DNA of 64,000 nt, from contig OZ020487.1 of the NCBI GenBank assembly GCA_963971405.1, positions 36,057,039 through 36,121,038 on the forward strand, read 5' to 3'. Of the stretch, positions 1,352 to 61,346 are shown in pieces. This DNA comes from Psococerastis gibbosa. Its lineage: Eukaryota; Arthropoda; Insecta; Psocodea; Psocidae. Positions within the stretch are counted from its first letter, which is position 1. The number at the start of each line of letters is the position of its first letter. The notes under the pieces were generated by a model. It was given only the letters and a program-made list of their open reading frames with translations. It did not search any database and was not told where the DNA came from. The translations under genes were made by a program, and so were the position numbers.

Positions 1352-1824
1352 GGCGGGGTTTCCACATACGTCGATCGTCAGTGAGAAATATGAAATTGAA
1401 GGACATTTCAATTTTTCATTGATGGCGGTGTTTCTACATGTTTTTTCAACTATTGACACTTTTCTTCTATTGAAACGTATGCGCCAAATTTTTGAAATAT
1501 GTTTGCATTTGTTTTTTGAAATTTTGTTTGTATTTGTTTTCTTCGTACACTTATTATTTTTAATAAAACCTAATAATAGTAGGAGTTCTAAAGAATGATC
1601 GACCTTCACCGATCTGTTTAATGGATGAAAACTGTTTTATAAACTATCTATTAAAATGTTTGTACTTAACATATTCCATGACGCCATTTTAGTTTGTTAT
1701 TGTTTGCAGCGCGTGATTTTACTCTATGATCATTGATCAATTTTAACAATGGCATAGAGTAAAATTGAAATGTCCTTCAATTTCATATTTCTCATTGACG
1801 ATTGACGTATGTGGAAACCCCGCC
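1352..1824. mobile_element. Foldback MITE, type B (473 bp)
   Basis: Ends GGCGGGGTTTCCACATACGT and, at the right, its inverse ACGTATGTGGAAACCCCGCC. The arms are about 60 bp and include TATGAAATTGAAGG. The left flank is TTA; the right flank (ATA) is not a clean match. The core (TATTAAAATGTTTGTACTTA … ATGATCATTGATCAATTTTA…ATGGCATAGAG) is the same as the core of the type-A elements at 4767, 21659, 24894 and 60080, although the arms differ. No transposase. A PIF/Harbinger-like origin is possible because of the TWA duplications in this group, but unproven. Confidence 0.75.
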
Positions 1825-2092
1825 ATAAGAGACGATCGAATGCGGCAAATATAAACATCAAAAATACCATGAAACAGGAATCAATGGTATAGAAGTGTCA
1901 AAAATATCAGGGCATAGAGAAGATATTCTTCTGAGCATTTTGATACGTATGACTATTTAATGGGTATGTGTGGCGTATAAATGGTCAGTGTTAGTTTTTT
2001 AATGTTTAATTTTTCTTCAGTTAAATTGAAATTTAACTTAATTTAGGCCTAATAGAAAAAATTAAATTATTCGTGACTTCTGTAAAACACCA
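1825..2092. other. Unassigned A+T-rich spacer
   Basis: Nothing recognised. Confidence 0.3.
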
Positions 2093-2180
2093 GTGGGTTT
2101 CTTAGAAAAAGTTATTTTTTTAAAACGATTATTTGGGTTTTACTAATTTTAGTTATAGCAGGTACATAACAAGTTTTACT
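2093..2180 (+). repeat. Dispersed repeat F3, copy 1
   Basis: Contains ACGATTATTTGGGTTTTACT followed by AATT and, a little further, ATAACAAGTTTT. The same run occurs at 36540-36625. Unknown family. Confidence 0.5.
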
Positions 2181-2201
2181 GAACGTATTTCGAAAATATC
2201 T

Positions 2202-2221
2202 AAAAAAAAAAAAAAAAAAAA
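2202..2221 (+). repeat. Poly(A) run, 20 nt
   Basis: Twenty consecutive A residues interrupting a short frame. It could be a retroposon tail, but no recognisable body precedes it. Confidence 0.6.
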
Positions 2222-2446
2222 TAAATCTCAACGAGTTAACACCGACAAACGAAGACTGAACAACATACTTACTGACTTACTTACTGAACGTAGATTAAGA
2301 TTTTTTCCAAATTTAAGCTGCACACGGGCTGAGCCCTGCAGCATATATTACGATTACTGTATAACTTAACTTTTTATGGAAATATAAATGTATTGTATTG
2401 TAAAAATACTCTAGATGCGGCATTCTAGATGCACTGCATGAGAAAG

Positions 2447-2626
2447 TTGGAACACCAACAATATGTTTATCTTTTGCCAGCGGATGACGTCAGAGTCCAG
2501 ATTTATGCTGACAAAAGATTTATTGGTTTACCAGTTACTTAGCAATTGAGACTTTGTTGCTAGGTAACCTGGTCACCCGAGTGCTTTTGCCAGTGTGTGA
2601 CGTCATTTTATGTTGGTCCCTCGGAA
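2447..2626. repeat. Possible small palindromic element
   Basis: Short inverted ends (ACCAACA near 2454, TGTTGGT near 2611), a direct repeat of CTTTTGCCAG..nnTGACGTCA (about 2471 and 2584), and an internal imperfect hairpin (ACCAGTTACTTAGCAA against TTGCTAGGTAACCTGGT). No target duplication seen. Weak. Confidence 0.3.
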
Positions 2627-3670
2627 ATTTTACATGGCGTGTCTATAGAGTATTATATGGTCTAAGCCTGGGATTAATAATTTAAACAATTGATAATGCT
2701 AGAACGGAAAGTGCTCTTCAAAATTGGTTGTTTACATTTTCAACACCCAGATTAAGCTAATACTAAACGGTATAGTAGGCCCTCTGGAGCCTGGACGGTA
2801 TAGATCCGTGCCGGCGTCCCCGTAGTAGGTATAAGGCACCGTTAAATTGAAGTAAGTAATAGAGAAACCTCATAATATTGTTTTTAATGTTGTATGGCAC
2901 GACGTTTGTGAAAGGGCGGCACCGCACGCACTTTACAAATGCGGGACAGCTTTTGCGGCACAAGCCGTGTGAATAAGTATAGCACATTGTAGCCGGCAGG
3001 AGGTTTGGCCAAATTCGTGACTTGACATCCCTAAATACCTATAGTTGTAAGTTGAAAGTCGTGATAGATTGTCTGCGCCTTTCAATGCTTACGTAGTTTC
3101 TTCTTTTCTTGAGTTTCAGGTCGGGTCGCTTCAGTGTTTCTATACTTTTCGAAGTTATTTGCTAATGATATTTTAGAGGCAGCTACTTTTTTTCAGTCTC
3201 AGTCTCTTATTTATTTTTTGAATTCGATACAGCCAAAACTACTGCACCATTTTATAAACAAAGTACCCAACTTTATTCCTAAAACAAAACCCGCAAGTTT
3301 TCTCTCTGTAACTTACTTCGCATAGTGGCACCGTATACTGTACATATCGTTCTGCATTGTGTTTTTTCTTTCACATGTTAATTGTGTTTTTCTCTCTTTT
3401 TTTATGATTTTTTAAAGCCATTATTTTACTTTTAATATACGTATTATTCTTCAACTGTTATATATTAATAAGGAGCCCCAGCACGGGTTAATCCTTGGAG
3501 TCCACCTACCACAACCTACTGTAATGTTATGTTATATTATCTTAGTATCTTTGCCAGTGTAATTGATGAAAGCCTTGTATACCATCGAGGACCTGCTCCG
3601 TCAAAAATGATTCGAAATTATAGGGGATTTTACCAATTTTAAACGAATGTGTTTTTACATAACAACATAA
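2627..3670. other. Unassigned noncoding stretch
   Basis: No element recognised and no frame above 75 aa. Confidence 0.4.
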
Positions 3671-3816
3671 CCTTCTACATGTTATATTCCAAGGGAAGAT
3701 AGATCCCGGCTGAAGAAGAAAAACCTTAGGAGAGGTTTGGCAATGGCACAACTTCCCTTTTCAGAGCTGCAGTCTCCAGGGTCCAAATTGCCATGATGAT
3801 CGCCAATATTCGATAG
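3671..3816 (+). pseudogene. Non-LTR retrotransposon ORF2, extreme C-terminus (decayed)
   Basis: The nucleotide sequence parallels the clearer copy at 59766-60049: both carry CATGTTATA-tTCCAAGGG, then CTTCCCTTTTCAG-GCTGCAG, then GTCCAAATTGCCATGAT and end at ATCGCCAAT.TTCGATAG. The ancestral peptide resembles the C-terminus of endonuclease-reverse-transcriptase LINEs (…IIQGKI…WLKNLRQW…IANIR-stop). Here the frame is broken in several places, so only ~145 bp of 3' coding end survive. The reverse-strand frames 3542-3751 and 3726-3911 are shadows. Confidence 0.55.
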
Positions 3817-3882
3817 AAGAGAAAAAAAAGAATAACTGGCAGTGATCCATTAGGTCTATGCCAACTTCCATCTGTTATTTGG

Positions 3883-3955
3883 AAAGAAAGAAAATTGCCT
3901 GTATTTTCCAATGGATGAATTTCGGGTCTTTCTTTGGCTCACTCTTACATTTTTA
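3883..3955 (-). mobile_element. LINE/SINE 3' tail with (TTTC)n end (family F6), copy 1
   Basis: On the plus strand GGAAAGAAAGAAAATTG, then TGTATTTTCCAATGGATGAATT and CTCACTCTTACA. The same order appears at 50883-50990 and at both halves of 53402-53553. Read on the minus strand it is a 3' end: GGAAAATA then CAATTTTC followed by CTTT repeats. More diverged than the other copies. Confidence 0.45.
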
Positions 3956-4763
3956 AGGAAATTCCTTGTGTACAGTAGATACTGATTTCCTATTGCCACG
4001 TCATGTTGTGGGGTCCGTTTATGATATCTCGTCTTTCTCTCTAGCCATGCTTGTCAAGGCGCATTGGTCTGACTTTATTTTCATAACTGTCTTCAGGTTT
4101 AAAAAACCACCTAGTTAATTTTGTGTTGCTAGGTACTCCCAGCATCTACCGCAAGCCCCAGAATCTTTTCTTAACAGCGAAATACCCCAAGCTATCCTTT
4201 ATCTCTTGAAGCAGCTATAATTAAAAGACGTTTAAGTTGCATTGTCTTTATTCGCTGGTGGGTACTATTGTCTAGCAACGGTTCCAATTAGCATCATGAC
4301 TTCATTTTGTAGGTTGACTACCTTGCTCGGTCGTCGACTCAGGCGCAACCTATTTACAACTTAATGTCGTTCAGTGCCTATCTCCAAATATAAGAGTAAG
4401 GCGAACTGCCGCACTGTCAAACGCCAAGGTACTACTATTAACGGACTTGTTTCCATAAAATACTACTACCTGTGGGACTACAAATATATTTACCATGCTA
4501 CGTAATAGCCTATAGATTTACTTAAGATTAGCCGATGGAATATTTTTTCTGATTATGAATATAGTAACTCGTTTAGTAGAGACTCGGTCTATAAATGTGA
4601 TTTTTTGGCCTCGCAGAATCTTCATAGACTTCATAAGGTGGCATTGTGATGTAACTAGCTGAGCTAAGAACATCACCTGGGTTATAACGTTTTCAGGTTT
4701 TATAGGTAACATTTACTCAAAATGGAGAGAAAATTCCTATTCTAATATAATGATTTGACTTGT
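3956..4763. other. Unassigned noncoding stretch
   Basis: No element or gene recognised. Confidence 0.4.
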
Positions 4764-4766
4764 TAA

Positions 4767-5146
4767 GGTGCCCATTCCACCGACCGGCTAGGGCTATTTA
4801 CAAAAACGGTGACGTGGTAGCAGACATTCAAGACTTAGGTGACGTTTCCACCGACCTCGCATTGCAGAATGCAAATGACATTGACGGAAATTAGAATTTT
4901 TCTTTTTATAGAAATCTATTAAAATGTTTGAACTTAACGTATCCCATGACGCCATTTTTTAATTTTAGTTTGTTTGTGATTTTACTGTATGATCATTGAT
5001 CATTTTTAACTATGGCATAGAGGAAAATAAACATTTCCGTCAATTCTGCAATGTGAGGTCGGTGGAAACTCCGCCTAAGTCTTGAATGACTGCTACCATG
5101 TCACCGTTTTTGTAAATAGCCCTAGCCGGTCGGTGGAATGGTCGCC
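4767..5146. mobile_element. Foldback MITE, type A, copy 1 (380 bp)
   Basis: Flanked by TAA at 4764-4766 and 5147-5149. The tips are GGTGCCCATTCCACCGACCG and the inverse CGGTCGGTGGAATGGTCGCC. The outer arms (about 70 bp, containing AAAACGGTGACGTGGTAGCA) run to an inner junction where a second element begins. That inner unit has TTTCCACCGACCTCGCATTG arms and the core shared with the type-B element. Noncoding throughout. Other copies: 21659-22042, 24894-25225, 60080-60463. Confidence 0.85.
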
Positions 5147-5149
5147 TAA

Positions 5150-5414
5150 GGGGAACCCCTTAACTGAACTGAAGTCAACTGTATTATTAAACATTAGGTC
5201 AAGGCCTGGCTCAATAGGTGATGCCGTGTGGTTGAGGGCTCCCGTAAGGTGAGGGATATGTGACAGTTATTGCTCATTGGTAAAGGTTAATGACAATGGT
5301 GTAATATTATTAACTAAGGGTTAGTTGGACATACATTGCCTGCTGTGTTAATAGTCATTAGAGGCAGGGACCTCACAGTCATTGAACAATTAGGGCTGAG
5401 TCAGAGGAAGGGAG
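5150..5414. other. Unassigned spacer
   Basis: Nothing recognised. Confidence 0.3.
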
Positions 5415-5867: not shown

Positions 5868-5875
5868 CCCTAGAG

Positions 5876-6210: not shown

Positions 6211-6218
6211 CCCTAGAG

Positions 6219-10625: not shown

Positions 10626-10800
10626 ATTGTGCCCCATCTATGTTAAAAGAAGGTACTTTTATCATATATCAAAATGCTCAGAAATATTTGTTCAGGTTGT
10701 CTTGATATTTTTTGACAGCTCTACGATTGATATTTCACGAGATATTTGATGTTTACACTTACAAGGCTTTTCCACCTCGGGTCTTCTTTTTTATTTATTA
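10626..10800. other. Unassigned spacer
   Basis: May be the tail of F2; not resolved. Confidence 0.25.
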
Positions 10801-11675
10801 TTGCTTTCCAATTTATACGTAGTATAAGGAAATCTTTGTGATGGTAGAAATTTTTGATTCGGAGATTTTAACGGATTTACACGTTTTCAGGTGCCAGGAA
10901 CCAAAAAAAGCGGTTTTTACGAAATGTCTGTCTGTAGCTCTGTCAGTCTGTCTGTCTGTCTGTTCATCGATTTCCGGGCAAACTACCCGGTCGATTTTAA
11001 TGAAATTTAGCATGTATGTTCACAAAAATCATACCTCGGGACGATTTTTTTATATTTTGGGCTAACTTAATTTTGGGGGGTTTTATTATCAAAAAACTCC
11101 AAAAAAACTTCTAAAATTTTTTTTTCTCAAAAACGGCTCCAACAATTTCTTTTAAATTCATGTATATTGTAGTCGTTATTAATGTTAATAAAATGCGCGG
11201 AGGGTCGCTTGCCCCTTGATAGTTTGCTTCTGGGGGTAAAAAAATAAAAACAACTAAATTTTAATAAAAAATTATTAAAAAAATAATTTTTCTGCAAAAC
11301 CTTTCTATCGATGATTTCTATCTCCGGGTATGTTTTAGGTGTTTAATAGAGTAACAAAACCAAACAGGTTGATTTCCAAAAAAAAATATTTTATTCTATG
11401 CAAAAAATTGTTTTTTGAAGAAATTATGGAAAATTCACGCTCAAATACATACCATGCTCTGTCATTGTTACGACTGTTACAATGTATTGGTGTGTTCGTT
11501 CCAGAATATATGCAATCGAGTTTTAAGGGGTTTTTAATATATTGGGGTGGACCCCTCCCCAGGGATCCGGAATTTAGCCATAGGGAAATTATTTACTATG
11601 AAATTACACATTATGTCTATCTACAAATTTTTTAAATTGGAAAGCATGTTCGAGTAAACTCGGACCGGTTCTTTT
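10801..11675 (+). mobile_element. Noncoding repeat family F1, copy 1 (~0.88 kb)
   Basis: Begins TTGCTTTCCAATTTATACGT, which folds with the following AGTATAAGG. It ends AAATTGGAAAGCATG then CGAGTAAACTCG. TTGCTTTCCAATTT at the start and AAATTGGAAAGCA at the end are inverted copies. Near the left end is a (GTCT)n tract, then CCGGGCAAACTACCCGGTCG and AAATCATACCTCGGG. Four other copies: 19610-20449, 32101-33158 (minus), 45866-46003 (minus, partial) and 61894-62295 (minus, partial). No conserved long frame, so the similar peptides predicted at 10838 and 19647 reflect nucleotide identity. Class unknown: the inverted tips suggest a DNA element. Confidence 0.75.
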
Positions 11676-13868: not shown

Positions 13869-14011
13869 GGCGGGTATTCCATATACGTACAACGTCAATG
13901 AAAATTATGAAATTGAAGGTGGTAGCAGAATTTTTTGTATGTCTTTAATGTCTGCTACCACCTTCAATTTCATAATTTTCATTGACGTTGTACGTATGTG
14001 GAATGGGCACC
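13869..14011. mobile_element. Foldback MITE, type C (143 bp, nearly all arm)
   Basis: Flanked by TAA at 13866-13868 and 14012-14014. The arms are about 60 bp and almost perfect, from GGCGGGTATTCCATATACGT to the inverse ACGTATGTGGAATGGGCACC, around a ~20-nt loop. The outer part of each arm (CGTCAATGAAAATTATGAAATTGAAGG) is related to the type-B arms. The inner part (GGTGGTAGCAGA, TCTGCTACCACC) is the type-A outer-arm motif. It is therefore a chimera of the two, and it would form a long hairpin if transcribed. Confidence 0.85.
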
Positions 14012-15444: not shown

Positions 15445-16584
15445 CTAGACGGATATGGAACAAGTTTGTATGAAATTGTGGAGTAAATGGAATAACTCAT
15501 AACTGCTTAAAATCTGTTGATAATTGAAAGGTGATGTAATAAGTGGTATTAAACTGTCAAAAAAAATTTCTCGATGGGTGGCAAAATTGGGGCACTCCAA
15601 AATTAAGTGTTGGAAGTCGCAGTAATCCCCTCCGCAGTGAGTGCATGAGGGGTTTGAACTTAGCCGTAATGGTTGGTAAAGATAACTCGGGCTTAGTCCG
15701 TGGTTGGACCTGAGCCGGCAAATAGTGGTTGACATGGACCTGGGGGTGTCTATTAGTTTCAAAAACCATGGCTTCCGAGGGGGGTATATTTGAAAGGCCT
15801 TGTAAAACTGCCCTTTCCCTGATGTTTTAAAATCCAGATGCCACTGCTGGACGTAAAAAATCTGTAAATGGGGCAAGTACTCCTGCCTTGGTACTTGTAC
15901 TTGTATTCGCTGTCCGCTGATAGCCCCTTGTTTCGCAAGGGCATCCACTTCATCATTAAATTTAATCCCCGCATGCCCCTTGACCCATACGAAATGAATA
16001 TTTATTTGCTCTTGTATGAAATTAACTAATTTTAGAATGCTGGCAACCGTGATATTACCCGCTTTGGAAGGGTGTTGTTTAGCTAGCAATTGAAGGGAGC
16101 TTAAGGAGTCGGTAAAAATTACAACCCCCGTAACCATGGCATCAAGATTTTCACTAATGTATTGTAGAGCCAAAAGAATTCCTGATAATTCCGCGAAGAA
16201 ACTGCTACAGAGGTGAGGCAAATTAAAACATTGTGACACTTTGTGTGTTGCATCCAGATAGGCACATCCCACACCCCCGTGCTGTTTGGAGCCGTCAGTG
16301 AAGATTTTAACCCTGGACAACCATTTATTGCTTACGTAATCCAAAAATACTTTATTAACTTCCATATCTGACTGAGTATTGTTATGTCCTTCAAATTTTG
16401 TAAAGGTGAAAGGGGCGATAGTAACATTATATGGTATTATGAACTGGTAAGGGGTGTTAGACACCTGTAAAGAAGATAAGTTGCAATAGTCGGCAATGAA
16501 ACTATCTACAATAGGAGGTGATCGACAATAACTGACTTCGATAGGTAATAGGCAATTCACCAGCCTCAGCACATAGAACATCAA
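15445..16584 (-). pseudogene. LINE ORF2 fragment: RNase H and C-terminal knuckle
   Basis: A 379-codon open frame. RNase H acidic residues are visible in order: FTDGSKQHGG (first Asp), FFAELSGILLAL (Glu), VIFTDSLSSLQLL (second Asp), then VKGHAGIKFNDEVDALAKQG with the late His and Asp. Near the C-terminus is CTHCGGDYCDFQHLILECPNF-like spacing (Cys, Cys, His, Cys), the knuckle usual after RNase H in I-group LINEs. In life the domain would degrade the RNA template during target-primed reverse transcription. The first ~30 residues of this frame lie out of phase with the RT frame (overlap 16502-16584), so the annotated ATG is not a real start; the original ORF came in from the other frame. RNase H residues look intact, which suggests fairly recent insertion. 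Confidence 0.85.
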
Positions 16585-17092
16585 TGGGAGTAGATTTCAA
16601 CATTCCCAGACACAGGCGTAAGCACTTATTCTGCAGTCTAGTGATTTTGATTAAGTGCACGTTGGAACCCTGTCCATAAAAAATAGAACCAAAATCAATG
16701 ATAGCCCTAACCGTTGCTCGATAAAAAAGCAAACAGGTACTGGGGTCGGCCCCCCACTTGCTTGCTGCTATAGCCCGCAGTATATTTATATAAATTGCCG
16801 ACTTGTTTAGAATGAGATCTATGTGAGTTTTCCAAGTAAGGGTTTTGTCAAGCCACAAACCGTGAAATTTGAATTCAAATTTAAGAGTGAAGTCCACACC
16901 ACCTAGAGTTAGAAATGATATATTTTGTAAGTTGCGTTTCCGGGTGAAGGGCACTATGTGTGATTTTGTGAATGACAATTCCAAACCCTTACTGCGACAC
17001 CACAATAACAATTGTTTAACAAAACCATCAAGTTTAGCAACTCCCTCCGCCATGGTCGAGCATTCACCCTGTGTTAAACTCGGTAAAAGCAA
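16502..17092 (-). pseudogene. LINE ORF2 fragment: reverse-transcriptase thumb region
   Basis: A 196-codon frame on the minus strand, upstream of the RNase H frame. It begins just after the missing catalytic YADD box (LLLPSLTQGE), continues through LSFTKSHIVPFTRKR (RT motif D/E area), FHGLWLDKTLTWKTHID and KWGADPSTCLLFYRATVRAIIDFGS, then LQNKCLRLCLGM and CAEAGELPITYRSQLL. These are the conserved post-palm and thumb motifs of I-group LINE reverse transcriptases. It ends at a stop around 16502 because of a frameshift near 16510-16560; the true protein ran on into RNase H. Catalytic RT residues are absent from the window, so the piece is non-functional. Confidence 0.85.
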
Positions 17093-18960: not shown

Positions 18961-19609
18961 TATATAATGGTCTTAACCGAAATTAGATCATTAAATGATT
19001 TCCCATTGGAATCCAAAATGCCGGCTATAAGTACATGCATACGAGCTGTAGTAGACATCGTGGCAGATGGTCGTAGTCGCCATCGGTACTATTAGAATAA
19101 AATGCGATATTTATCAAATTACTGGCAATAAATTAACCCCTTTCATATAAAACTCCATGGCGGCCATAGACAAATGACATCAAAACGCAATTTATGCATT
19201 TTTCATAACACTTTCATCAGATGATTTTTTTATCTTTGCGGCTGCGGCGCGAGGCATTAATTAATTTAGCCTCATTAGTTGACAAAATATTTGGAAGTGT
19301 TTGGCTTCAGCCAATAAAGTGGAGCTAGTTTGTAAAACTTTACCTCTCTATATTGTTGTTGAACTGTGCTGACAGTGGCCGGGTGTCCCTCAGGGTAGCT
19401 GCCCCAGGCTGCAATGTCCTGTCAAATTTCCGGAGGCCATTAATCATCTCTGTTTTCTTGACGCCTTTCCCCATGAGTAAGCAAGCACTTTTCCTACAGA
19501 TCTAGTTGGAGATGGCCTACGGTATGTCAACTAGGGTTCTAAAATGGAGAGCAGCGACATGTATCCAGTCATGTTGGTGTTGTTACCGCCTGTTTGGCTA
19601 TTAATTTTA
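18961..19609. other. Unassigned stretch with a direct-repeat unit
   Basis: Holds the right unit (19025-19140) of the direct repeat that begins at 18680. Nothing else recognised. Confidence 0.35.
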
Positions 19610-20449
19610 TTGCTTTCCAATTTATACGTAGTATAAGGAAAGCTTTGTGATGGTCGACATTTCCGATTCCGAGATTTCAACGGGATTACACGTTTTGAGG
19701 TCCCAGGAACCCAAAAAAGTGGTTTTTACGAAATGTCTGTCTGTCGCTCTGTCTGTATGTCTGTGCGTCGATTTCCGGGCAAACTACTCGGTCGATTTTA
19801 ATGACATTTTGCATGTAGGTTTAAAAAAATCATACCTCGGGATCATTTTTTTTCTTTGGGGCTAACTCAATATGGGGGGGTTTTATTCTCAAAAAACGTC
19901 TAAAAAAATTATTTCCCAAAAACGGCTCCAACGATTTCTTTTAAATTCACATATATTGTAGTTGTTATTAATGTTGATAAAACGCGGGGGGTCGCTTGCC
20001 CCTTGATAGTTTGCTTCGGGGGGTAAAAAAATAAAAGTAACTAAATTTTCATGAAATATTACTAAAAAATAATTTTTCTGCGAAACCTTTCTATCGATGA
20101 TTTCTACTTTCAGGTATGTTTTAGGTGTTAAATTGAGTAACAAAACCGGACAGGTTGCTTTCCCAGAAAAGTATAAATATATATCGTTTTTTTTTTTTTT
20201 AATGATTCACGCTCAAATAAATGCATTGCGTGCCCTGCCAGTATTGCTGTGTGGTAATGTGTTGGTCTGACCTATCTAGAATTTACCTCACCTCCTGTGA
20301 CGTCAGGTGGACACCCCCCCCCCCCCCCCCCCGAGATATCGGAAATGTAACAATAGGCAAATTATTTAACATGAAATTACTCATTTTCTCTACCTACTAA
20401 TTTTGATAAATTGGAAAGCATGTTCGAGTAAACTCGGACCGTTTCTTTT
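19610..20449 (+). mobile_element. Noncoding repeat family F1, copy 2 (~0.84 kb)
   Basis: Full-length match to 10801-11675 in the same order: TTGCTTTCCAATTTATACGT start, ACGGGATTACACGTTTTGAGG, the (GTCT)n tract, TTGATAGTTTGCTTC, and the AAATTGGAAAGCATG…CGAGTAAACTCGGACCG end. A 19-C homopolymer (20314-20332) sits inside and is absent from copy 1. Confidence 0.75.
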
Positions 20450-21658: not shown

Positions 21659-22042
21659 GGCGCCCATTCCACCGACCGGCTAGGGCTATTTACAAAAACG
21701 GTGACGTGGTAGCAGACATTCAAGACTTAGGCGGGGTTTCCACCGAACTCGCATTGCAGAATTGACGGAAATGTTTATTTTCCTCTATGCCATGGTTAAA
21801 ATTGATCAATGATCATACAGTAAAATCACAAACAAACAAACTAAAATTAAAAAATGGCGTCATGGGATATGCTAAGTACAAACATTTTAATAGATTTCTA
21901 TAAAAAGAAAAATTCTAATTTCTGTCAATGTCATTTGCATTCTGCAATGCGAGATCGGTGGAAACGCCACCTAAGTCTTGAATGTCTGCTACCACGTCAC
22001 CGTTTTTGTAAATAGCCCTAGCCGGTCGGTGGAATGGGCGCC
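21659..22042. mobile_element. Foldback MITE, type A, copy 2 (384 bp)
   Basis: Flanked by TTA at 21656-21658 and 22043-22045. The tips are GGCGCCCATTCCACCGACCG and its inverse. An inner unit occupies 21730-21971, from GGCGGGGTTTCCACCGAACT to a GTGGAAACGCCACC end, itself bordered by TTA and TAA. It lies inverted relative to copies 1, 3 and 4 (its core reads TGATCAATGATCATACAGTA). Noncoding. Confidence 0.85.
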
Positions 22043-32100: not shown

Positions 32101-33158
32101 AAGAAGCGGTACGAGTAAACCCGTCTATGCTTTCCTATTTATCGATTATTATAGGTACTATAAGTAGTTCCAAGGTAAATAATTGTCCCTGGGTTAATTT
32201 TCGGTTGCCTCGACTTTCATTATCCCAAAGCACTAAATTGATCAATGGGACGATTGCATAGTTTATAATACCAATATATTCAAAGGCACTAATAATGATA
32301 GGGTACCGGTATGTATTGTAATATATTGGGGCATCAATTATCCACAATTTCTTCAAAAATTAATATTATATTCAAAACCAAAACTTTGGTTGGGAAAGCA
32401 ACCAGTTCAGTTTCGTTACTCTATTTAACACATACAAGTGTGAAGTTAGAAAGCTAAGATATGCCGGCCGCCATACCAAGTTGAATCCAGCGGTCCAGAG
32501 CAGTTTTAAAGCTGCAGATTACTTGGTCGTGTGCACAGTGCCGGTAGGGAATCATGGTAGGACTTGTCCTGGTCACCTCCGAACTAATCGTGTGACTTAG
32601 CTGTGTTTCCCAAGTGGTTCGGAATCCACTATAATCAGGAGGTCCACTGTCCTATGGGCTCGCATAGGACAGTCAAGTCGGGGTCGCTCTATGGGCCCAA
32701 ATATGAGGCCTAAGTCGTTATTAACCCGACGAACACAACTAATACTACTACTACTAGAAAGCTAAGATGAAAGGTTCCGCTACAAAATAAATTTTTAGTC
32801 ATTTTTAATGTAAATTGAATATTATTTTTTTTTGGCCCCCAGAACTAAACTATCAAGGGGCAAGCGACTTATTGCGGTTTGTTAACATTAATGACGACTG
32901 CAATATACTTGAATTTATAGCAGTTTTTTGGAGGTTTTTTGAATGGTAAACCCCCCCCCCCCCTAAGTTGAGTCAACCCAAAATAAAAATTTTGATTTTC
33001 GAGGCATGATTTTTTGAACCTACATGCCAAATTTCATGAAAATCCACCGAGTGGTTTGCCCACTAATTGACGAAAAGACAGACCACCTTATACCATTGAA
33101 TATATAACACCAGTGTTATATATACAATGCTTATACTATCGTATAAATAGGAAAGCAA
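32101..33158 (-). mobile_element. Noncoding repeat family F1, copy 3, interrupted by a SINE
   Basis: Minus orientation: the 3' tip (CGGTACGAGTAAACCCG, ATGCTTTCCTATTTATCGAT) is at 32106, and the 5' tip (hairpin with CTTATACTATCGTATAAATAGGAAAGC) at ~33130-33157. ACTATCAAGGGGCAAGCGAC and AGGCATGATTTTTTGAACC match the inner parts of copies 1 and 2. The (GTCT)n tract is replaced by a short palindrome ATATATAACACCAGTGTTAT. A 5S SINE split this copy at 32461, so F1 was already there when the SINE moved. Confidence 0.75.
32461..32755 (+). mobile_element. SINE-A: 5S-rRNA-derived SINE, copy 2 (full length)
   Basis: Target duplication AGAAAGCTAAGAT, 13 bp perfect, at 32448-32460 and 32756-32768, inside an F1 element. 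The head is GCCGGCCGCCATACCAAGTT then GAATCCAGCGGTCC, colinear with the 5S rRNA start. ATTACTTGGTCGTGTGCACA and GTAGGGAATCATGG align with the 5S box C region. The body includes AGTGGTTCGGAATCCACT and GTCGGGGTCGCTCTATGGGC, and the tail is (ACT)n. It is the reference copy for the family. Confidence 0.85.
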
Positions 33159-41023: not shown

Positions 41024-41143
41024 GGCGGTTATTCCACTTGTCAATATTCCGTCATTTGTGCATCAATAATTGATGAGATAACATAGATTAAAGAAAAAAT
41101 CTCATCAATTATTGAAGAAAAATTGACAAGTGGAATAGCTGCC
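41024..41143. mobile_element. Foldback MITE, type D (120 bp)
   Basis: Flanked by TTA at 41021-41023 and 41144-41146. The tips are GGCGGTTATTCCACTTGTCA and inverse TGACAAGTGGAATAGCTGCC; then CATCAATAATTGATGAGAT pairs with ATCTCATCAATTATTGA around a ~20-nt loop. Only the tip 'GGCGg..ATTCCAC' is common with types A-C. Confidence 0.8.
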
Positions 41144-46003: not shown

Positions 46004-47445
46004 CTAGTGGCTGCGGACCGAACTGGACCATTCGGTTCACTGATGTTGTTGGTCCAGTCCCCACCCCTGATTTTTAGTATTTTCGGCCCTGACCTCGGTT
46101 TTGTCCTCCAGACTTTTGATATTTTTCAATGAGTTTTCGGTCAGGTCCAAAAATCGAGATCGAATCCATCACTAGTAATAGCACTTGAGTCTTCAGTAGT
46201 GAGTACTGATGACCTGTATGGCCAAATACCAATCTCTAGACGTGGAGCTGAAGAGGGCATGCCAGAATCGAGGGGAGTTGAGGTATCTAAGTCACATGTT
46301 GCTGCCATCCAGCTGTAACTTGAAGAAGAAGACATGGATTTGCAATAAGCTGTAGATACTGCCTGAGTAGCCGTTAAGTAGCGAAATGTACCGATGACAG
46401 GTACCTACTATCCGATCCCGATAAAAAGTTAAACTGTTGGGCCCGGCGACTCGTTTACTCAGGTACTTAACCAGGTGAACGTCCTCCACTTAAAGTCTCT
46501 TATTATGCTCAATCTTTTTCTAAATAATTAGGCCTACTCGGCATTGACCTAAGTACCGCTATAATGTGTGGAAAAGTAGTTGTGGAGCATATTGTGCGTT
46601 CTAGTACCTATTTCACATATTTAAGTTAAGTGACTAAGTGAGGCGGATTGTTCCGCATAATTCCATTTAGCGACAACAATGGAGGAAAGTAGAGATTGCT
46701 GAAGAATAACAGATGCAAGTTAATATTATTACTAGCAGGATGAGTTAACTCGCCAAAAGTCCAGAAATATGTTATTTTAGCGCTGCTAATGAAAATATAT
46801 TTGGTTTAAAACCATAGGGCTAAAGCGCCCGCGGGCTCCCATGCTATTTTTATAACTAGGTATACCTAGCGTATGTCGGCTGAACTCCGAAGCTGAATTA
46901 AAATAATAATGATTAGTATTCACCTCATTATTTTGCAGAAAATTGCCTTAATCGCGATATTATAAAATTGTAACTTAATAGAAAACCTCCTGAACACATA
47001 CTATATGAATGATTGAAGGGGAGTGCCACGTACATCTGGCTTGCAAAGTGGAGACCAGAGTTCTAGTCTGCTTGCATTCAATATTTCTTAACTTCCTTTC
47101 TGCAATATTACAAGTGTAAATTCTTAAGACCCCATAATCCCTTTTTTGCCTTTTCGTCTTTTCTTTTCGCCTTTTTGTCAAATTTCTCACGAGATATCGA
47201 TCGTAGAACCATAAATGAAATGTCATAAAATGTTCCTCTAAATTTTGATGGACATTATGTTGTCATCACTAACATCGATCAGCCAAATTGATTGAACTGG
47301 GTTCGTAAAAAATAACGGACACTGCGGATATCAGGTCCAATGAGTGAAGTGATGGCCTTGTTCTTTATGACATGTCAATTATGGCTCTACGATAGTTATT
47401 TCATGAGAAATTTGACTTAGTATATAACAAACGTCTAGCCTTATG
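46004..47445. other. Unassigned stretch
   Basis: Nothing recognised in 1.4 kb. Confidence 0.4.
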
Positions 47446-47830
47446 AGGACATGCTACGTAGAAAATGAGCACCCCAAAATTTGTTGTTTTTATTGACTTT
47501 TTATTTTTTTATTTAATTAACAAAGCAAGTCATTAAAGGTTTGCCTCATGGAAGTTGTAGAAGACTACTTCATGCATCATGTAATTGGAAATATTACATT
47601 TTTGGTACCTTAGTTTTTCACAAATACCAGAACGGACTAAAATACGCGTATTCTAGGATTTTTGGAAGAACTACAAAACCGAAATGAAAAAATACCCGAT
47701 TATATGATGCACGAAGTAGTCTTCTACAACTTTCATGAGCCAAACCTTTAATGACTTGCTTTGTTAAGAAAATAAAAAGATAATGAAAACAACAAATATT
47801 GGGGTGCTCATTTTCTACGTAGCATGTCCT
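47446..47830. mobile_element. Large foldback element, 385 bp, ~130-bp arms
   Basis: The left arm 47446-47580 and right arm 47704-47830 are near-identical inverted copies: AGGACATGCTACGTAGAAAA, TGAGCACCCCAA, AACAAAGCAAGTCATTAAAG, GAAGTTGTAGAAGACTACTT, then CATCAT. The ~120-bp loop contains A+T-rich noncoding DNA. No target duplication was recognised at the tips. The 101-codon reverse frame (47618-47923) is an artefact. Not related to the GGCG-tipped MITEs. Confidence 0.75.
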
Positions 47831-48434
47831 GTAAACACTAGAAAAGTCTGTGACATCTCGCAGAGGTTTCGTATGGCCGTGATAATGGAGTACAACAGTA
47901 ACCACGATTTTTTGAATTGTCATTGAGAATACAGCCTAATCATTGTTGCAATGTATCGAATCACTTCATTTCTCTTTTAATCAAGTATGCCTAGTGGAAA
48001 ATCGCAGAAACAGGTAGTCTGGCAGCGGTCTATCTAGATGAGAAGTGCCGATCCGCGACGTTACCGATCCTGGGCTATTCCTGCCGACTTTCATCTCCTT
48101 GGCTGCACTTCTCTACCGGTCCATCGAGTTCGGAGAAAGACATTTCTCTGTGAAAAGTGACAATGGCATTGAAAAGTAAACGTCTTTCTGTTACAGCTAA
48201 TGATTATTGTTAAAAGTTATGTCTTCAAGTTTCTAATAGCTATTATTGCATTACTTGCTGTTAACTGTTAAGCAACGTTACCTTTGAATTACGAGTTCTG
48301 CCTTGTACCGTAATGTAACTTTATAATTTTAGAATGTGTTCTAAATTATCTAAGTCTATTTAAAGTTTATTTGTCCTTTTCTATCTTGTTCCAAATGGGC
48401 ATACGACACATAATGCCATAATAGTGCTTATAAT
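47831..48434. other. Unassigned stretch
   Basis: Nothing recognised. Confidence 0.35.
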
Positions 48435-53272: not shown

Positions 53273-53282
53273 CAGCAACACT

Positions 53283-53553: not shown

Positions 53554-53566
53554 ACCCCTAACTAAG

Positions 53567-54220: not shown

Positions 54221-54560
54221 GTGTCGTGGTTGATAAGGGCTGTGACCATAACTCGAAAGGTAGCCGGCCGCAGATAACTTGGTCGTGTGCACAGTGCCGG
54301 TAGGAAAACATGGTAGGACTTGTCCTGGTCACCTCCGAACTAATCGTGTGACTTCACTGTGTTTCCCATGTGGTTCGGAATCCACTATAATCAGGAGGTC
54401 CACTGTCCTATGGGCTGGCCTAGGACAGTCAAGTCGGGGTCGCTCTATGGGCCCACATTTGAGGCCTAAGTCGTTATTAACCCGGCGAACACTACTACTA
54501 CTACTACTTAACTCGAAAGGTTGTTGGTTCGAGTCTTACAGGCTGCAGAAACAGTTATAA
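54221..54560 (+). mobile_element. tRNA-derived SINE (SINE-T) relic, split by a 5S SINE
   Basis: The left piece GTGTCGTGGTTGATAAGGGC … TAACTCGAAAGGT and the right piece AACTCGAAAGGTTGTTGGTT CGAGTC rejoin around the SINE-A insertion to give the A-to-B-box part of the SINE-T head. The body after the B box (TTACAGGCTGCAG) is diverged. Confidence 0.55.
54262..54508 (+). mobile_element. SINE-A: 5S-rRNA-derived SINE, copy 3 (head deletion)
   Basis: Target duplication TAACTCGAAAGGT at 54249-54261 and 54509-54521 (13 bp, the first base ambiguous with the tail). It starts GCCGGCCGC like the others, then jumps to AGATAACTTGGTCGTGTGCA: about 44 nt of the 5S-like head are missing compared with copy 2. 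The body and the (ACT)n tail are like copy 2. The 93-codon frame at 54279-54560 is a shadow. Confidence 0.85.
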
Positions 54561-57325: not shown

Positions 57326-58516
57326 CTTTGAGAAGACCATTGATGGTCCTGAAAGGCTTTCCACCAATCCAAAGCCACTCACAGAACTAAGACCTATTTT
57401 TAAGGTGCCCGTGAAATGTCTAATCTCAGTATCTTTAGGTCTTAGTGTTTATGCTAGCTAATTTAAATTTGGACCGTTTCCCTAGACGTCGCTTCGTTTA
57501 ATTTCAACCATAACAATTTTCTTTTCCAAAAGAAAAGAACTGCCATGAAGTGTTCAGTTAAAACAGGCCTTACTGTCGTCACTTCCAATAGATTCCTCCT
57601 TCCTTCATCCGGTGCTACAGCTCATCGTGATCTTCCAATCTCCTGTTTGGTTTATTCTATTCCCCTGCTCAGTTCCTCAGATAGCCCTTTACCTCGTCCT
57701 ACCTGCCTTCATTAGGTGTCTCCTTCTGACTTGTGCTATTCACCCATTTCAATAGATTGTCTGAGCTTTGGCAAGGACATAGATAATGTCTTCGTTTTTA
57801 ATGTATCGTCCGACGCTTGGTGAAGGCCAAACATCGATACCAACGATACATTCTCCAGACATTGTTCACGTCCACCTGACGATATTCCTTTCGCTCAGTC
57901 GAATACGTATCAAACAAACTAATTAATATTCTAGTACTATAATTTCCATAAGGCTCGGTGGAAAGGGGCTTTTAAGGAAAATACCATAGGCCTATCTGCT
58001 ATTTATAGAACTTGTGACAAAACTTGCCTTTGCAGCCTGCCTATACCGTTTCCTTTGGGGAGACTTCCATTAGTCCAAATTAGATGAAGAACGAAGCCAA
58101 CTTGAAAGGGATCACATTCATGTTTTATGAATGCACTTTCATCAGTTTTAATATTCCACCATATCAAACTGTTGGTTGACTTATGTGGAAACTTCTACTT
58201 CCCCATATATTGTAGGATACTTCATTGTTTTATCTTTCTTTTCCTACAGGCTTAAGGCGTAAGAGGAGAAAAACCAAATGCGGCGGTCGGTAAATACATG
58301 TATCGTATTTAATGTGAACTCTATAGTATTAACCTTCTTTTGGGGGGGGGGGGGGCAGATTTTGGTTTTAGATCTGAAGGTGTATCTGTCAGCCGTTCCA
58401 ATTTAGTTCTATCTATGCAAAGTGGTTTCGTTTTGAACCTTCTAACTAACAATAGAAATATTTATTTATTTTATCGTGGAGGCTCAGTGTGAGTGAGTAT
58501 TATAAGTAGGGGCCGC
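57326..58516. other. Unassigned stretch
   Basis: A G run near 58341-58354 and a loose ATGTATCGT/ACGATACAT inverted pair near 57800-57850. Nothing else recognised. Confidence 0.35.
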
Positions 58517-58546
58517 GATAACTGATGGGAATTGCCATCAGTTATC
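58517..58546. repeat. Perfect 12-bp hairpin
   Basis: GATAACTGATGG and CCATCAGTTATC around a 6-nt loop. No U run follows and no operon context exists, so it is not called a terminator. It might be the tip of a lost foldback element. Confidence 0.5.
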
Positions 58547-58965
58547 ATTTAGTTAGCCATTTATTTAGTGTGCGATTGAATAGGGGCGTCGCTGAATTTT
58601 GAAATAACTGATGTGTCTCCCTTGCGTTCCCAAGGGCTCACTTGACCCTGGCACGCGACCCCTCTGCTTTTGGTTACGGAACTTTTGCCCCATTTTGACG
58701 GAGCTCTTTTAGGGGTTGCATCTTAAAACAGTCGTAGCCTCATCTCTTCTCACTGTGCTACGAACATTACAGAGCAGGTTTTATAAGACATTGCACAGTA
58801 TAATATATGACAGTATGTATTGAATGGTATATGCTTTTGTTCAGGAGAGGATCCAGAACTTTTGTTGGGGGGGGGGGGGGTGGGGGGGGCTAACCATATC
58901 CCAAGAATCAGTATAAGTTAATTAGAAATGTGTAATGAGTCCTATTACATTTGAAACTATAAGTC

Positions 58966-59340
58966 TTTCTTTCTTTCTTTTCCTTGTCCAGTATTCCCTG
59001 GACAAGGAGCATATATTACAAAAATACAATACATAATAATACCATCCCGCATCCCCAAGCTAACGCTTATTTGGGACAAAAGACTCATACAGTGTTGCTA
59101 AACAAGGCTTAATCATTTGTTGTTGTTATTTTTATTTATAATGTTTATTTTATTTTAGTTTTATTTTAGTTTTACTTGTTTTACTTTGTTTTTACAGTTT
59201 TTATTATTATTACCTCCCATTGACCAACCATCTTTTTATACCCGCTTTTAACTCTCCCATCTGTTTAAATTTTTTCATTTGAGGAGGAAGTTCATTTAAT
59301 ATCTTTGGTATAAGTAATAATAATAATTCCGACTTTTTTT
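58966..59340 (-). mobile_element. LINE-type 3' end with terminal hairpin and (GAAA)n tail
   Basis: On the minus strand a short C-terminus reads SELLLLLIPKILNELPPQMK then KFKQMGELKAGIKRWLVNGR-stop, the usual '…LP…K…FK..IK.WL' ending of CR1/L2-like ORF2. An A+T-rich 3' UTR follows. It ends in CCTTGTCCAGGGAATACTGG ACAAGG, a perfect 10-bp stem, followed by AAAAGAAAGAAAGAAAG. It starts directly behind the SINE-T head, so the two together look like one chimeric SINE. Confidence 0.55.
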
Positions 59341-59533
59341 TGTTCTATTACTAACCCAACCTAACGGAGTTAGGGCTATAAAGCCCTCTCTTACACTCAA
59401 CTAGGATGACCCGGGGCCGCCTGCTTTACATGCCCTCCGAAGCATGGCCGGAAAATGTAGCCAGTGTGGGACTCGAACCAACAACCTTTCGGGTGGAAGT
59501 CGGAGTCTGTAGCACTACTCTACAGGTCCTGCC
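59341..59533 (-). mobile_element. tRNA-derived SINE (SINE-T), copy 4
   Basis: On the minus strand GGCAGGACCTGTAGAGTAGT (A box), CGAAAGGTTGTTGGTTCGAG TCCC (B box), then GGCTACATTTTCCGGCCATG, GTAAAGCAGGCGGCCCCGGG and AGAGAGGGCTTTATAGCCCT, colinear with 25822-25999. It ends near TAGTAATAGAAC and A8, then meets the LINE-type 3' end. Confidence 0.75.
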
Positions 59534-59620
59534 AATCCAAACTATTGTATTATAAATAAAGTCAGGGTCAGACTGAGCCCTAACCCCTTAGCCCCCCTTA
59601 GTTTCGCCCCTGCTTTTGTC

Positions 59621-59765
59621 ATAGTGTACCAATTGACGGTCATTACGACGATTCCTGACTGCATGGTTCCTTCCATCTCCATCGAAGCTAAAAATACGCC
59701 CGGTAAATTAATTCACATTTGAAAACTTTTTTGGATGACAGTGTCAGAGCATTTCTGGGAGACTT
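59621..59765. other. Unassigned spacer
   Basis: Nothing recognised; may contain more decayed LINE ORF2. Confidence 0.25.
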
Positions 59766-60049
59766 CGTGTCCCTAATGCCGAGGTCCTGAGGCGAATAGA
59801 AACAGAAGTCGAAATGCGGTTGACGGTTAGAAAACGGAATCCAACATACTTAGACCATGTAATGAGGAACGAAAAATACCGCCTTCTGCATGTTATAATC
59901 CAAGGGGTGATAAAAAGACTGACAGAAGAAAAACATCCTGGTTGAAAAACTTGCGACAGTGGTTTGGTTTGGCAAATGCACGACTTCCCTTTTCAGTGCT
60001 GCAGTCTCCAAGGTCCAAATTGCCATGATTAATCGCCAATCTTCGATAG
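59766..60049 (+). pseudogene. Non-LTR retrotransposon ORF2 C-terminus (decayed)
   Basis: The plus-strand frame reads RVPNAEVLRRIETEVEMRLT, VRKRNPTYLDHVMRNEKYRL, LHVIIQGVIKR; after a shift of frame near 59912 it reads RRKTSWLKNLRQWFG and, damaged, …IANLR-stop at 60049. This is the C-terminal part of LINE endonuclease-reverse transcriptases in which '.YLGH..RN.KY.LL..IIQGKI.G…R...SWL.N.R.W' precedes the end. A stop and the frameshift kill it. The same family left 3671-3816. The type-A MITE at 60080 inserted 30 bp downstream. The reverse frame 59850-60140 is a shadow. Confidence 0.7.
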
Positions 60050-60079
60050 AACAGGCATATAAAGAAGAAGTGTCAGTAA

Positions 60080-60463
60080 GGCGCCCATTCCATTGACCGG
60101 CTAGGGCTATTTCCAACAACGGTGACGTGGTAGCAGCCATTCAAGACTTAGGTAGCATTTCCATCGAACTCACATTGCAGATTGCAAATGACATTGACGG
60201 AAATGAATGTTTTTCTTTTTATAGAAATCTATTAAAATGTTTGTAATTAACATATCCCATGAAGCCATTTTTTAATTTTAGTTTGTTTGTTTGTGATTTT
60301 ACTGTATGATCATTGATCAATTTTAACTATGGCATAGAGGAAAATAAACATTTCCGTCAATTCTGCAATGCGAGGTCGGTGGAAACCCTGCCTAAGTCTT
60401 GAATGTCTGCTACCACGTCATCGTTGTTGGAAATAGCCCTAGCCGGTCAATGGAATGGGCACC
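60080..60463. mobile_element. Foldback MITE, type A, copy 4 (384 bp)
   Basis: Tips GGCGCCCATTCCATTGACCG and the inverse CGGTCAATGGAATGGGCACC. Both tips carry the same ATTGAC variant, as expected of co-evolving or gene-converted arms. The left flank is TAA (60077-60079) and the right TTA (60464-60466), not an exact duplication. Core and inner unit as in copies 1-3. Confidence 0.8.
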
Positions 60464-60466
60464 TTA

Positions 60467-61084
60467 CCCATACACGATCAATACCACGATCCAGTCTGCA
60501 ATGATACACGGACCGATGAGGCATATGAAAATAACGAGGAGTGAGTTCAAAACATCCGTCCAGCCAAACTCACCAAAAACACTTAGGTACACTTTAATAA
60601 GACCCGTATATGATATTTTAAAGCTCGTGATTACATAAGGGAGGCTATTACGCTTTGAGCCCGACAGGGACATGCTGGCTAATGGGCTTTCGAGCTTTGA
60701 CAAAAAGGTAAATTGGGAGATGAAGGGAGGGAGGGGGGGGGGGGGTATATCTGCTTGTCGAAAGGTTAGTGACGTTTCCTATTAGTATAGAGCTATCTCA
60801 AAGTTCGCCTTGTCAGCTTTCCAGTTGGCCTCACACATCTTTGCCCTGCTTACAGCGTGGGGAAAGTTTTGCAGGGATTATGGATAATTTAGATAGTGAA
60901 GTGTTAAAAATATTTTTGGTGTTCCTGCTATATGACTTCTACTACATACATTACATTAGTATACTAGGAGTAGATAAATATCATATACACGAATATAATT
61001 AGTGAAAACCCTTTTTTCGGGACGATTCTGTTCACATTCAGCTTCTATATTCCCTTTTCTTTGCTGCAACCGGTTAATCTATAA
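60467..61084. other. Unassigned stretch
   Basis: A G run near 60733-60746. Nothing else recognised. Confidence 0.35.
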
Positions 61085-61346
61085 AGTTGCCTTCAGGCAG
61101 AATTTACTTCATTTGTGATTTGAGATTTATTGTTTGTTTTGTTTTAAGGACACTATTATGTAGATACTTAACTTATATATTATAAATTAAGTTATAATAC
61201 GGTAGCAGACATCATTAGTAAGCCTCTATCATAATATAACTTAATTTACAATAGATAAGTTAAGTATCTACATAATAGTCTCCTTAAAACAAAAAAAAAC
61301 AAAAAAAATCACAAATGAAGTAAATTCGCCGGTGGAATTGCCGCCT
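61085..61346. mobile_element. Foldback MITE, type E (~260 bp)
   Basis: Inverted arms: GAATTTACTTCATTTGTGAT, TTGTTTTAAGGA, ACTATTATGTAGATACTTAA CTTAT on the left, with a near-perfect inverse ending CACAAATGAAGTAAATTCGC. The right tip CCGGTGGAATTGCCGCCT has the group's 'GTGGAAT.GCCGCC' signature; the left tip is worn. The loop contains ACGGTAGCAGACATCA, the type-A/C outer-arm motif. Confidence 0.65.

Follow-up and report, generated by a model that had tools for sequence, protein, structure and literature searches.

Eight short palindromic elements lie within a 64,000-nucleotide stretch of chromosome 4 of the barkfly Psococerastis gibbosa (the window), and they raise the question of how elements with a common tip have come to combine their arms and cores in different ways. 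An earlier note on this DNA had proposed a modular family of foldback MITEs that exchanges these parts. The proposal was partly confirmed: the mosaic is real and wider than had been claimed, with several corrections.

Palindromic elements and their tips

The elements of the window span 120-473 bp (Table 1). Inverted arms of 64-109 nt, 88-97% identical, were found in the three intact copies of A and in B, C and E; those of D reach only 32 nt at 84%. Long inverted arms thus form much of the element, as in foldback (long-palindrome) elements. The window contains 11 ORFs of at least 100 aa, none of which (0/11) overlaps one of the window elements, and Rfam gave no match in the window for the core-2 loop as an RNA.

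Table 1. Palindromic elements of the window and their parts
Feature	Position	Strand	Description
B	1352..1824		473 bp; 64-nt B-type arms flanking core 1; inverted arms 97%; flanks TTA/ATA
B, left arm-to-core-1 junction	1392..1416	+	GAAGG joined to ACATTTCAATTTT
B, right arm-to-core-1 junction	1760-1784	minus	
A4767	4767..5146		composite of outer and inner palindrome; 380 bp; flanks TAA/TAA
A4767, inner element	4838..5075		own tips, core 1; flanks TTA/TAA
C	13869..14011		143 bp; B-like arms, core 2 inside; flanks TAA/TAA
C, core 2 loop	13922..13958		GTAGCAGA...TCTGCTAC; 94.7% to core 2 over 38 columns
A21659	21659..22042		composite; 384 bp; flanks TTA/TTA
A21659, inner element	21730..21971		flanks TTA/TAA
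A24894	24894..25225		truncated; right outer arm mostly gone
D	41024..41143		120 bp; flanks TTA/TTA
A60080	60080..60463		composite; flanks TAA/TTA; both outer arms carry four mirrored private changes
A60080, inner element	60151..60392		flanks TTA/TAA
E	61085..61345		arms are core-3 sequence; GTAGCAGACATCATTA in loop; left tip degenerate

The tip pattern TWAGGCGNNNATTCCAC has 20,214 matches in the genome and its reversed control 3, and palindromic elements with this tip are present in thousands of copies. The elements of the window are present far beyond chance. For the shared tip, described earlier as GGCGnnn-TTCCAC, the spacer is corrected: the consensus is GGCG-NNN-[A/T]TTCCAC, i.e. four bases separate GGCG from TTCCAC, and the strict three-base spelling has 0 matches within the window. 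Of the two tips of E, the right one fits this consensus and the left one is a degenerate AGTTGCCTTCAGGC. Forty copies of the A family (scored of 1371 candidates) and 40 of the B family (scored of 3574 candidates) include the window's own, the others being 97-98% and 92-97% identical, respectively. When each plus tip in the C1 listing was paired with a minus tip following it within 600 bp, 19 pairs were obtained, one of which (C1:2641410-2641852) may be two elements; the tip triplets were equal at both ends in 11 of the 19, with a permuted mean of 3.3 and a maximum of 10 in 5000.

Flanking sequences and the search for a transposase

TWA stands on either side of 49 distinct elements, and in 39 of them the two 3-mers are identical. 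The middle base, which is nearly always A or T, was unequal between the sides in 10/49 of these loci and in 10/19 of the C1 listing; another 19 loci entries have a flank other than TWA. Among the type-A copies bounded by outer tips on both sides (48, duplicate loci L015 and L077 left out), 31 carried identical 3-mers (17 TTA, 12 TAA and 2 ATA), compared to a permuted mean of 18.6 and a maximum of 29 in 2000. At 29 A insertions with identical TWA flanks, C precedes the TWA in 15 and G follows it in 12. The flanks fit a 3-bp TWA target duplication, and the ends, GGCGNNN[A/T]TTCCAC, belong to inverted repeats beginning with G or A, both as in PIF/Harbinger-type elements. The earlier suggestion that TWA duplication would fit such mobilisation is supported by the 39 identical cases, but the unequal W bases (10/49 and 10/19) are not what plain target-site duplication predicts. 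Within the window, clear TAA or TTA flanks had been reported at most elements; matching TWA on both sides is present at four of the eight (A4767, A21659, C and D), while the flanks differ at A60080 (TAA/TTA) and B (TTA/ATA), 24894 is without its right outer arm and E is unclear.

A genome search with PF13359 gave 150 scored matches of 220 candidates. An autonomous PIF/Harbinger-type relative would bear these tips and encode an HTH plus DDE transposase and a Myb/SANT protein. In 30 PF13359 loci (g1-g3) of 3.4-3.5 kb each, a length that stops short of transposon ends, no such autonomous partner was identified. The g1 loci are ISL2EU-like (DDE_Tnp_4, HTH_Tnp_4 and a downstream YqaJ ORF), the g3 loci carry DDE_Tnp_4 and HTH_Tnp_4, and a g2 ORF, with no match in Pfam, looks THAP-like on our own reading. 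A MITE is nested in 20 of the 21 group-1 loci, and the tips beside g1 transposases, considered as ends of the g1 transposon, were rejected since they belong to this nested MITE. ISL2EU was also rejected as the source of the MITEs themselves: its duplication is AT in A-AT-T, and the flanks here are mostly TWA. The inverted repeats of the PHIS groups PIF/Harbinger, ISL2EU and NuwaII start with G or GG, like those of the barkfly, and either TWA (PIF/Harbinger) or TNA in C-TNA-G (NuwaII) may fit the barkfly flanks (PMC4482050). As no transposase is tied to these tips, a PHIS group cannot be chosen.

Reassortment of arms and cores

Across the genome, one arm occurs with different cores and one core with different arms. 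Reassortment was judged from genome-wide junction counts, and the junction patterns take in just the final 10-11 nt of each arm. Two arm ends combined with two unrelated cores gave 1489, 1058, 241 and 2027 junction matches, with 0 for all reversed-pattern controls; the first count is that of the B arm-to-core-1 pattern GAAATTGAAGGACATTTCAATTTTA, one mismatch allowed. Strict descent does not put each of two arm ends with both cores, and the counts speak for recombination or template switching. There is a distant likeness between arms B and T, so ordinary homologous recombination could swap them without template switching.

Core 1 is present in A, B, L084, L018 and L066, and core 2 in C, L031, L008, L067 and L070 and, partially, in L081, L069 and L013. 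A and B do have one core and different arms, as had been noted: the three intact copies of A match the B core at 82-83% across some 148 bp, and the truncated 24894 matches it at 76%. The B-like outer arms ascribed to C were likewise seen, around core 2, at 13869-14011, and GTAGCAGACATCATTA lies in the loop of E, where the A outer-arm motif had been described. The statement that D shares only the tip is valid inside the window; elsewhere in the genome, L066:229-655 joins D-type arms, similar to those of D at z 14-18, to part of the A/B core. D is a reduced relative of this core-1 element, whose arms it shares. Core 3 is a single loop in L024 and is doubled as arms in L004 and E, so that E and L004 are inside-out versions of L024, with centre and arm swapped.

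It is commonplace for families to have a tip in common and interiors that are unrelated, and in the window there is little beyond the tip to connect D and E with A, B or C. A common tip selected by the same transposase, on MITEs with no other relationship that each picked up host sequence on their own, is nevertheless a very improbable explanation: stretches of 120-128 nt in A, L084 and L018 match the B core at 86-98%, exact junctions recur in many copies, and D is tied to core 1 via L066.

Type A as a two-tier composite

Every type-A copy carries a second, inner pair of tips of the same kind about 71 bp inside the outer pair (of 62 left sides that were measured, 59 have a distance of 71 bp and three one of 70 or 74). 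Type A is thus a two-tier composite, and its inner tips also serve as ends. Counting only cases in which the TTA of the right flank cannot derive from the composite, three sites (L078:1505-1757, L081:1205-1528 and L081:2486-2805) show insertion by the inner ends, the TTA/TTA flanks being unambiguous there; L067:1203, L070 and L072 (TAA/TAA) and L087 (TTA/TTA) would agree with such use but can also be read otherwise. The loci L061-L090 were picked by a pattern that leaves out the commonest junction, so end-usage rates are biased. An outer tip resembling the inner tip was observed in L029, L065, L067:2018, L073, L076, L077, L081:2486 and L082, and L026 is an interrupted composite.

The inner element has inverted flanks, TTA...TAA, in 48 of 57 composites and direct flanks in 0 (inverted in 47 of 54 without duplicate loci). 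These flanks were rejected as proof of palindrome copying, because all copies go back to a single founding event and unequal W bases are frequent in any case. In a site-by-site four-gamete test in A, many pairs showed all four combinations, within modules and between them; recurrent mutation is therefore possible, and the test was set aside.

Composite A may have arisen when one element simply inserted into another at its centre and the product then amplified. Extended to the whole family, this would mean that elements enter palindromic centres at C-TWA-G, composites amplify and tips pair variously, with no template switching. Such nesting would account for most modular variants; it agrees with the nearly constant distance between outer and inner tips, the use of inner ends, the lean of A insertion sites towards C-TWA-G, which resembles the inner junction GAC-TTA, the core-1 element interrupted by another palindrome in L018 and the MITE within group-1 loci. 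An outer A lacking the inner element was, however, not clearly found. In a DNA search with the joined arms, 40 of 341 candidates were scored and none matched over the full length, and the centre pattern ATTCAAGACN{0,15}GTCTTGAAT gave one near-empty match genome-wide, ATTCAAGACTTGGGCGTCTTGAAT. A search for A-outer joined to core 2 gave 130 matches, and the 100 that were listed include no clear form of this kind; in most of these the sequence is ACATTGACGTGG, which is T-like, and in four it is ACGGTGACGTGG, ending in TTCTTAG (two), TTTTAGG and TTTATAA. The match with TTTTAGG could represent a core-2 form from which a T has been lost. Nesting also leaves unexplained the centre-arm swap between L024 and L004/E, the occurrence of B-arm and T-arm at the same junction of the same core, and L076, in which inner-arm sequence is grafted onto both outer arms. 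As an account of the whole family it seems rather unlikely. As for the earlier claim of a mosaic made by recombination or template switching, the modules do reassort, in four multicopy pairings; template switching itself is inferred, and nesting explains A equally well.

Changes mirrored on both arms

A subfamilies differ by changes on both outer arms at once. Of 55 aligned composite A copies, 8 were dropped, and the outer arms of the remaining 47 carry 92 mirrored changes, against a mean of 18.6 and a maximum of 55 in 5000 shuffles. These counts are not independent, as the copies of a subfamily share one founding event. The 14 copies outside the young subfamily have 42 such changes, where shuffles average 14.5 and reach 38 at most. 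Of the 33 young copies, 32 have 0 mirrored among 20 left and 50 right changes, where shuffles give 0.8; the remaining copy has four, a number reached by 167/5000 shuffles. There is thus no sign of continuing symmetrisation within the young subfamily, and, given mirrored differences between subfamilies and their absence from most young copies, new lineages seem to start symmetric. A tentative extension, which we hold to be somewhat doubtful, is that each master lineage was born by one event that recombined modules and copied arm onto arm, so that symmetry was reset and later lost.

Mirrored changes might instead reflect selection for matching ends, if asymmetric elements transpose poorly and symmetric ones are amplified. 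A transposase acts on both ends. Transposition of mPing drops when its two flanking target duplications mismatch (PMC4561436). But some mirrored positions of the 71-nt arm (31, 32, 39 and 54) lie well away from the tip, and most young A copies were amplified with inner tips that are unequal between the arms (GGCGGGG vs GGTGGCG). Such selection is an improbable source of the symmetry.

Proposed mechanism and related systems

The elements probably constitute one superfamily of short palindromic MITEs with separable tip, arm and core modules, mixed and returned to symmetry by switching during synthesis. MITEs without visible genes would insert at TWA sites in a PIF/Harbinger-type (PHIS) manner, and a transposase supplied in trans might cut at any facing pair of tips. 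During gap repair or palindrome copying, synthesis may sometimes jump across to the other arm or into a different element, which would graft a new arm or core and restore symmetry, and the re-symmetrised copy could then found a new subfamily. No recombination intermediates were seen, and the mechanism is read from its products.

Among the known systems considered, the closest precedent is Galileo in Drosophila. In Drosophila willistoni this foldback-like element of the P superfamily has long inverted repeats that extend and restructure, as in the barkfly, and internal or foreign sequence enters one repeat and later forms part of both; template switching, ectopic recombination and gap repair were invoked by its authors (PMC4168063). 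Galileo differs in its transposase superfamily and its 7-bp duplication, and reassorted pairs of arm and core and an inside-out palindrome are absent from the available part of the Galileo account (PMC4168063). Tourist-like MITEs such as mPing (PIF/Pong/Harbinger) are also non-autonomous, with a 3-bp duplication and a preference for TAA or TTA, while the barkfly elements stand apart by long foldback palindromes, modular arms and cores and a frequent mismatch of the middle flank base (PMC4561436). No account of MITEs with reassorted arms and cores was among the literature matches listed, although one may well exist outside them. The barkfly palindromes belong to a known kind of parasite DNA and offer an unusually clear case of its evolution through recombination.

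The birth and diversification of MITEs, which encode nothing, are an old open question. One chromosome-level genome here retains thousands of copies together with their pairings, inside-out forms and symmetric founding changes, and the birth of MITEs by recombination and arm-to-arm copying thus becomes statistically testable, where single cases would allow no more than a guess. If, on the more doubtful reading, symmetry is reset at the birth of each lineage, the palindrome would be an engine for exchanging arms, for turning inside out (L024 vs L004/E) and for carrying two nested sets of working ends.

Elements, tips and target sites

The assembly searched comprised 409,210,807 bases in 68 contigs; the published description of iuPsoGibb1.1 (Psococerastis gibbosa) gives 409.21 Mb, chromosomes 1-8 plus X and 69 scaffolds (PMC12559846), and the extra scaffold may be the mitochondrion. 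The data come from this single genome: sequence was read in the window and 90 small loci, while the genome-wide figures are pattern counts and partial lists of matches. All eight GGCG...TTCCAC foldback elements (types A-E) described in the earlier note were found at their positions, with details corrected. Both blocks of the tip that it gave, GGCGnnn-TTCCAC, stood, but the spacing did not, the real form being GGCG-NNN-A/T-TTCCAC. The tip pattern TWAGGCGNNNATTCCAC is matched exactly 10,115 + 10,099 times genome-wide, and the reversed pattern 0 + 3 times. Of 1371 type A candidates 40 were scored: the copy in the window plus 39 at 97-98% identity to it. Of 3574 type B candidates 40 were scored as well, the 39 besides the window's own at 92-97%.

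Flanks were compared in 96 pairs of similar facing tips from the loci and the window; ISL2EU-like loci were excluded, as were L015 and L077, which are duplicates. Setting aside 27 false internal pairs (TAG/CTA) and 19 pairs flanked on at least one side by something other than TTA or TAA left 50 pairs, or 49 distinct elements (L009 was counted twice). The 3-mers on both sides were identical in 39 of these 49. Among 48 A copies with both outer tips they were identical in 31 (17 TTA, 12 TAA, 2 ATA; 2000 shuffles: mean 18.6, maximum 29), and 4-mers agreed in 2/48. This agreement supports the 3-bp TWA duplication proposed earlier, although its middle base is often non-identical: it alone differs in 10 of the 49 elements (L001-L030, L061-L090 and the window) and in 10 of 19 pairs on contig C1, which would seem to exceed the ageing of a plain 3-bp duplication. 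Agreement was unequal between the samples, 39/49 against only 9/19 on C1 (first 100 of 20,214 tip matches listed). One proposal for mPing is that cleavage at the flanking duplication is staggered (PMC4561436). Speculatively, the mismatch could arise on insertion if an excised element brings TWA overhangs from its donor site. The bases beside TWA lean to C-TWA-G, with C in 15 and G in 12 of 29 A insertions.

Mosaic of arms and cores

Core 1, the centre of A and B (reference taken from B), was matched in L084 (98.4% over 128 nt), L018 (87.5%), the inner element of L078 (88.3%), A21659 (86.0%) and L066 (93.2% over 59 nt). Core 2, the loop of C (GTAGCAGACATTTTTAGTATGTCTTTAATGTCTGCTAC), occurs over 37-38 nt in L070, L031, L008, L067 and C, and partially in L069 (27 nt), L081 (20 nt) and L013 (17 nt, twice); both outer arms of A carry an 18-nt half of it at their inner ends. 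Arms were compared by the best of the left and right arm, with z scores against shuffles. The B arm was nearest to L067 (z 15.9), then C (11.9) and L070 (11.7), all of them core-2 elements, and less close to the elements that have the same core as B, L018 (7.2) and L084 (2.8). The arms of L084 and L018 were themselves nearest to the core-2 element L069 (z 12.4 and 12.6), and the D arm to the core-1 element L066 (z 14-18).

Junctions were counted genome-wide on both strands with one mismatch allowed. The B-arm end gave 728 + 761 matches with core 1 and 528 + 530 with core 2, and the T-arm end 112 + 129 and 1021 + 1006, respectively; since one palindrome may match twice, matches outnumber elements. 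Reversed-pattern controls for all four junctions gave 0. Every one of the four pairings is multicopy, which bears out the earlier proposal that the types share modules in a mosaic. The patterns span just the last 10-11 nt of each arm, and arms B and T distantly resemble each other, so ordinary recombination within the arms could have produced the exchange.

Some palindromes are turned inside out. In locus L024 the loop contains the single copy of ATAGATAAGTTAAGTATCTACATAATAGT and the stem two copies of GTAGCAGACATCATTA, whereas L004 and window element E have two inverted copies of ATAGATAAGTTAAGTATCTACATAATAGT as arms and a single GTAGCAGACATCATTA in the loop. One insertion would be insufficient for this, and a palindrome re-formed around a new centre would fit.

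Composite A elements and arm symmetry

Each A consists of an outer palindrome with 71-nt arms ending ...AGCAGACATTCAAGACTTA and, enclosed in it, a further element that has tips of its own, e.g. GGCGGGGTTTCCACCGACCTCGCATTGC. Outer sequence bordered 57 of 77 inner-tip matches on both sides, the 77 including some repeat hits on one element through its outer tip and some in duplicate loci. In these 57 composites the inner element was flanked by TTA...TAA in 48 and by a direct TWA repeat in 0. The inner element also occurs free-standing in L078, and an outer-left tip is paired with an inner-right tip twice in L081 (flanks TTA/TTA); therefore, the inner tips function as ends. Genome searches with the joined arms, a centre pattern and an A-outer/core-2 pattern showed no clear outer A element lacking the inner one among the matches scored or listed.

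For outer-arm symmetry, 55 of 57 composites were aligned (two exceeded the length filter) and eight were left out: the truncated W_24965 and L068, the poorly aligned L026_2250, L065 and L073, and three duplicates (L015, a copy of L014, and two L077 elements, copies of L076). The remaining 47 showed 92 majority-differing changes mirrored on both arms (shuffled pairings: mean 18.6, maximum 55 in 5000), which are not 92 events, as inherited changes are counted repeatedly. Outside the young subfamily, 14 copies taken by themselves showed 42 (shuffles: mean 14.5, maximum 38). Mirrored changes mark A subfamilies, with tips GGCGCCCA, GGCGCGGT, GGCGCATA, GGCGCCGA and GGCGGGGA and changes at arm positions 31, 32, 39 and 54. 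In 32 of the 33 young copies there were 20 left and 50 right changes, the latter inflated by one common variant, and 0 mirrored (shuffle expectation 0.8). The 33rd, A60080, has four mirrored changes; shuffling the 33 copies gave at least four in 167 of 5000 trials, so this copy alone proves little. In L076, both outer arms carry inner-arm sequence in place of their own outer portion, and this copy departs from the majority by 20 mirrored changes. Independently, the NNN triplets of both ends agree in 11 of 19 C1 pairs listed (permuted mean 3.3, maximum 10). From the mirrored changes and triplet agreement, arm symmetry seems to be fixed when a lineage begins and to decay thereafter.

Transposase loci and other features

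A search for PF13359 (DDE) transposases scored 150 matches of 220 candidates; the 30 loci read form groups g1-g3, outside which lies a larger 384-aa group. Group g1 encodes DDE_Tnp_4 and HTH_Tnp_4 together with a YqaJ ORF, a gene set that matches the description of ISL2EU in PMC4482050. A core-2 MITE lies downstream of the transposase in 20 of the 21 g1 loci (L031-L051) and therefore spreads as a passenger too. Locus L051 lacks it, and the MITE's left flank is the exact point of divergence.

Coordinates of elements, repeats and ORFs
Feature	Location	Details
Window	G000:C12:36057039-36121038	chromosome 4
Free-standing inner element of A	L078:1505-1757	flanks TTA/TTA
Passenger core-2 MITE	g1 loci, oriented position 2573-2735	151-162 bp; TTA/TTA flanks in copies measured
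Free relative of passenger MITE	L008:2215-2376	94.6%
Core-1 element broken by another palindrome	L018:543-1349	TTA/TTA; palindrome about 300 bp, similar to those lying downstream of the transposase gene in groups 2 and 3
Ordered tip matches (NNN = GGT, CTT, CCC)	G000:C1:3036381-3710786	mostly minus strand, steps roughly 80-110 kb; suggests a large tandem segmental duplication
Nested inverted repeats	window 47434-47842	arms 124 nt (81%) and 78 nt (87%); further foldback structure
63-nt inverted repeat	window 62953-63390	97%, arms 312 nt apart; perhaps another non-autonomous DNA transposon
ORF region	window 15445-17092, minus strand	379-aa ORF (15445-16584), RNase H domain (PF00075, E 5.9e-13), perhaps of a retroelement; overlapping 196-aa ORF with no Pfam match
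Dispersed repeat pair	window 10798-11384 / 19607-20170	87-89% identity
Dispersed repeat pair	window 32511-32752 / 54267-54508	94% identity

Possible mechanism

The palindromes would probably be mobilised by a transposase supplied from elsewhere, and from the TWA flanks and the C-TWA-G leaning we infer one of the PIF/Harbinger or NuwaII kind. In Galileo, foreign sequence entering one inverted repeat is described as coming to stand in both (PMC4168063), an outcome similar to that seen here, although at a larger scale. In P. gibbosa, synthesis might change template, passing to the facing arm or to another element, during excision-gap repair or replication of the palindrome, and nesting would contribute composites such as A.
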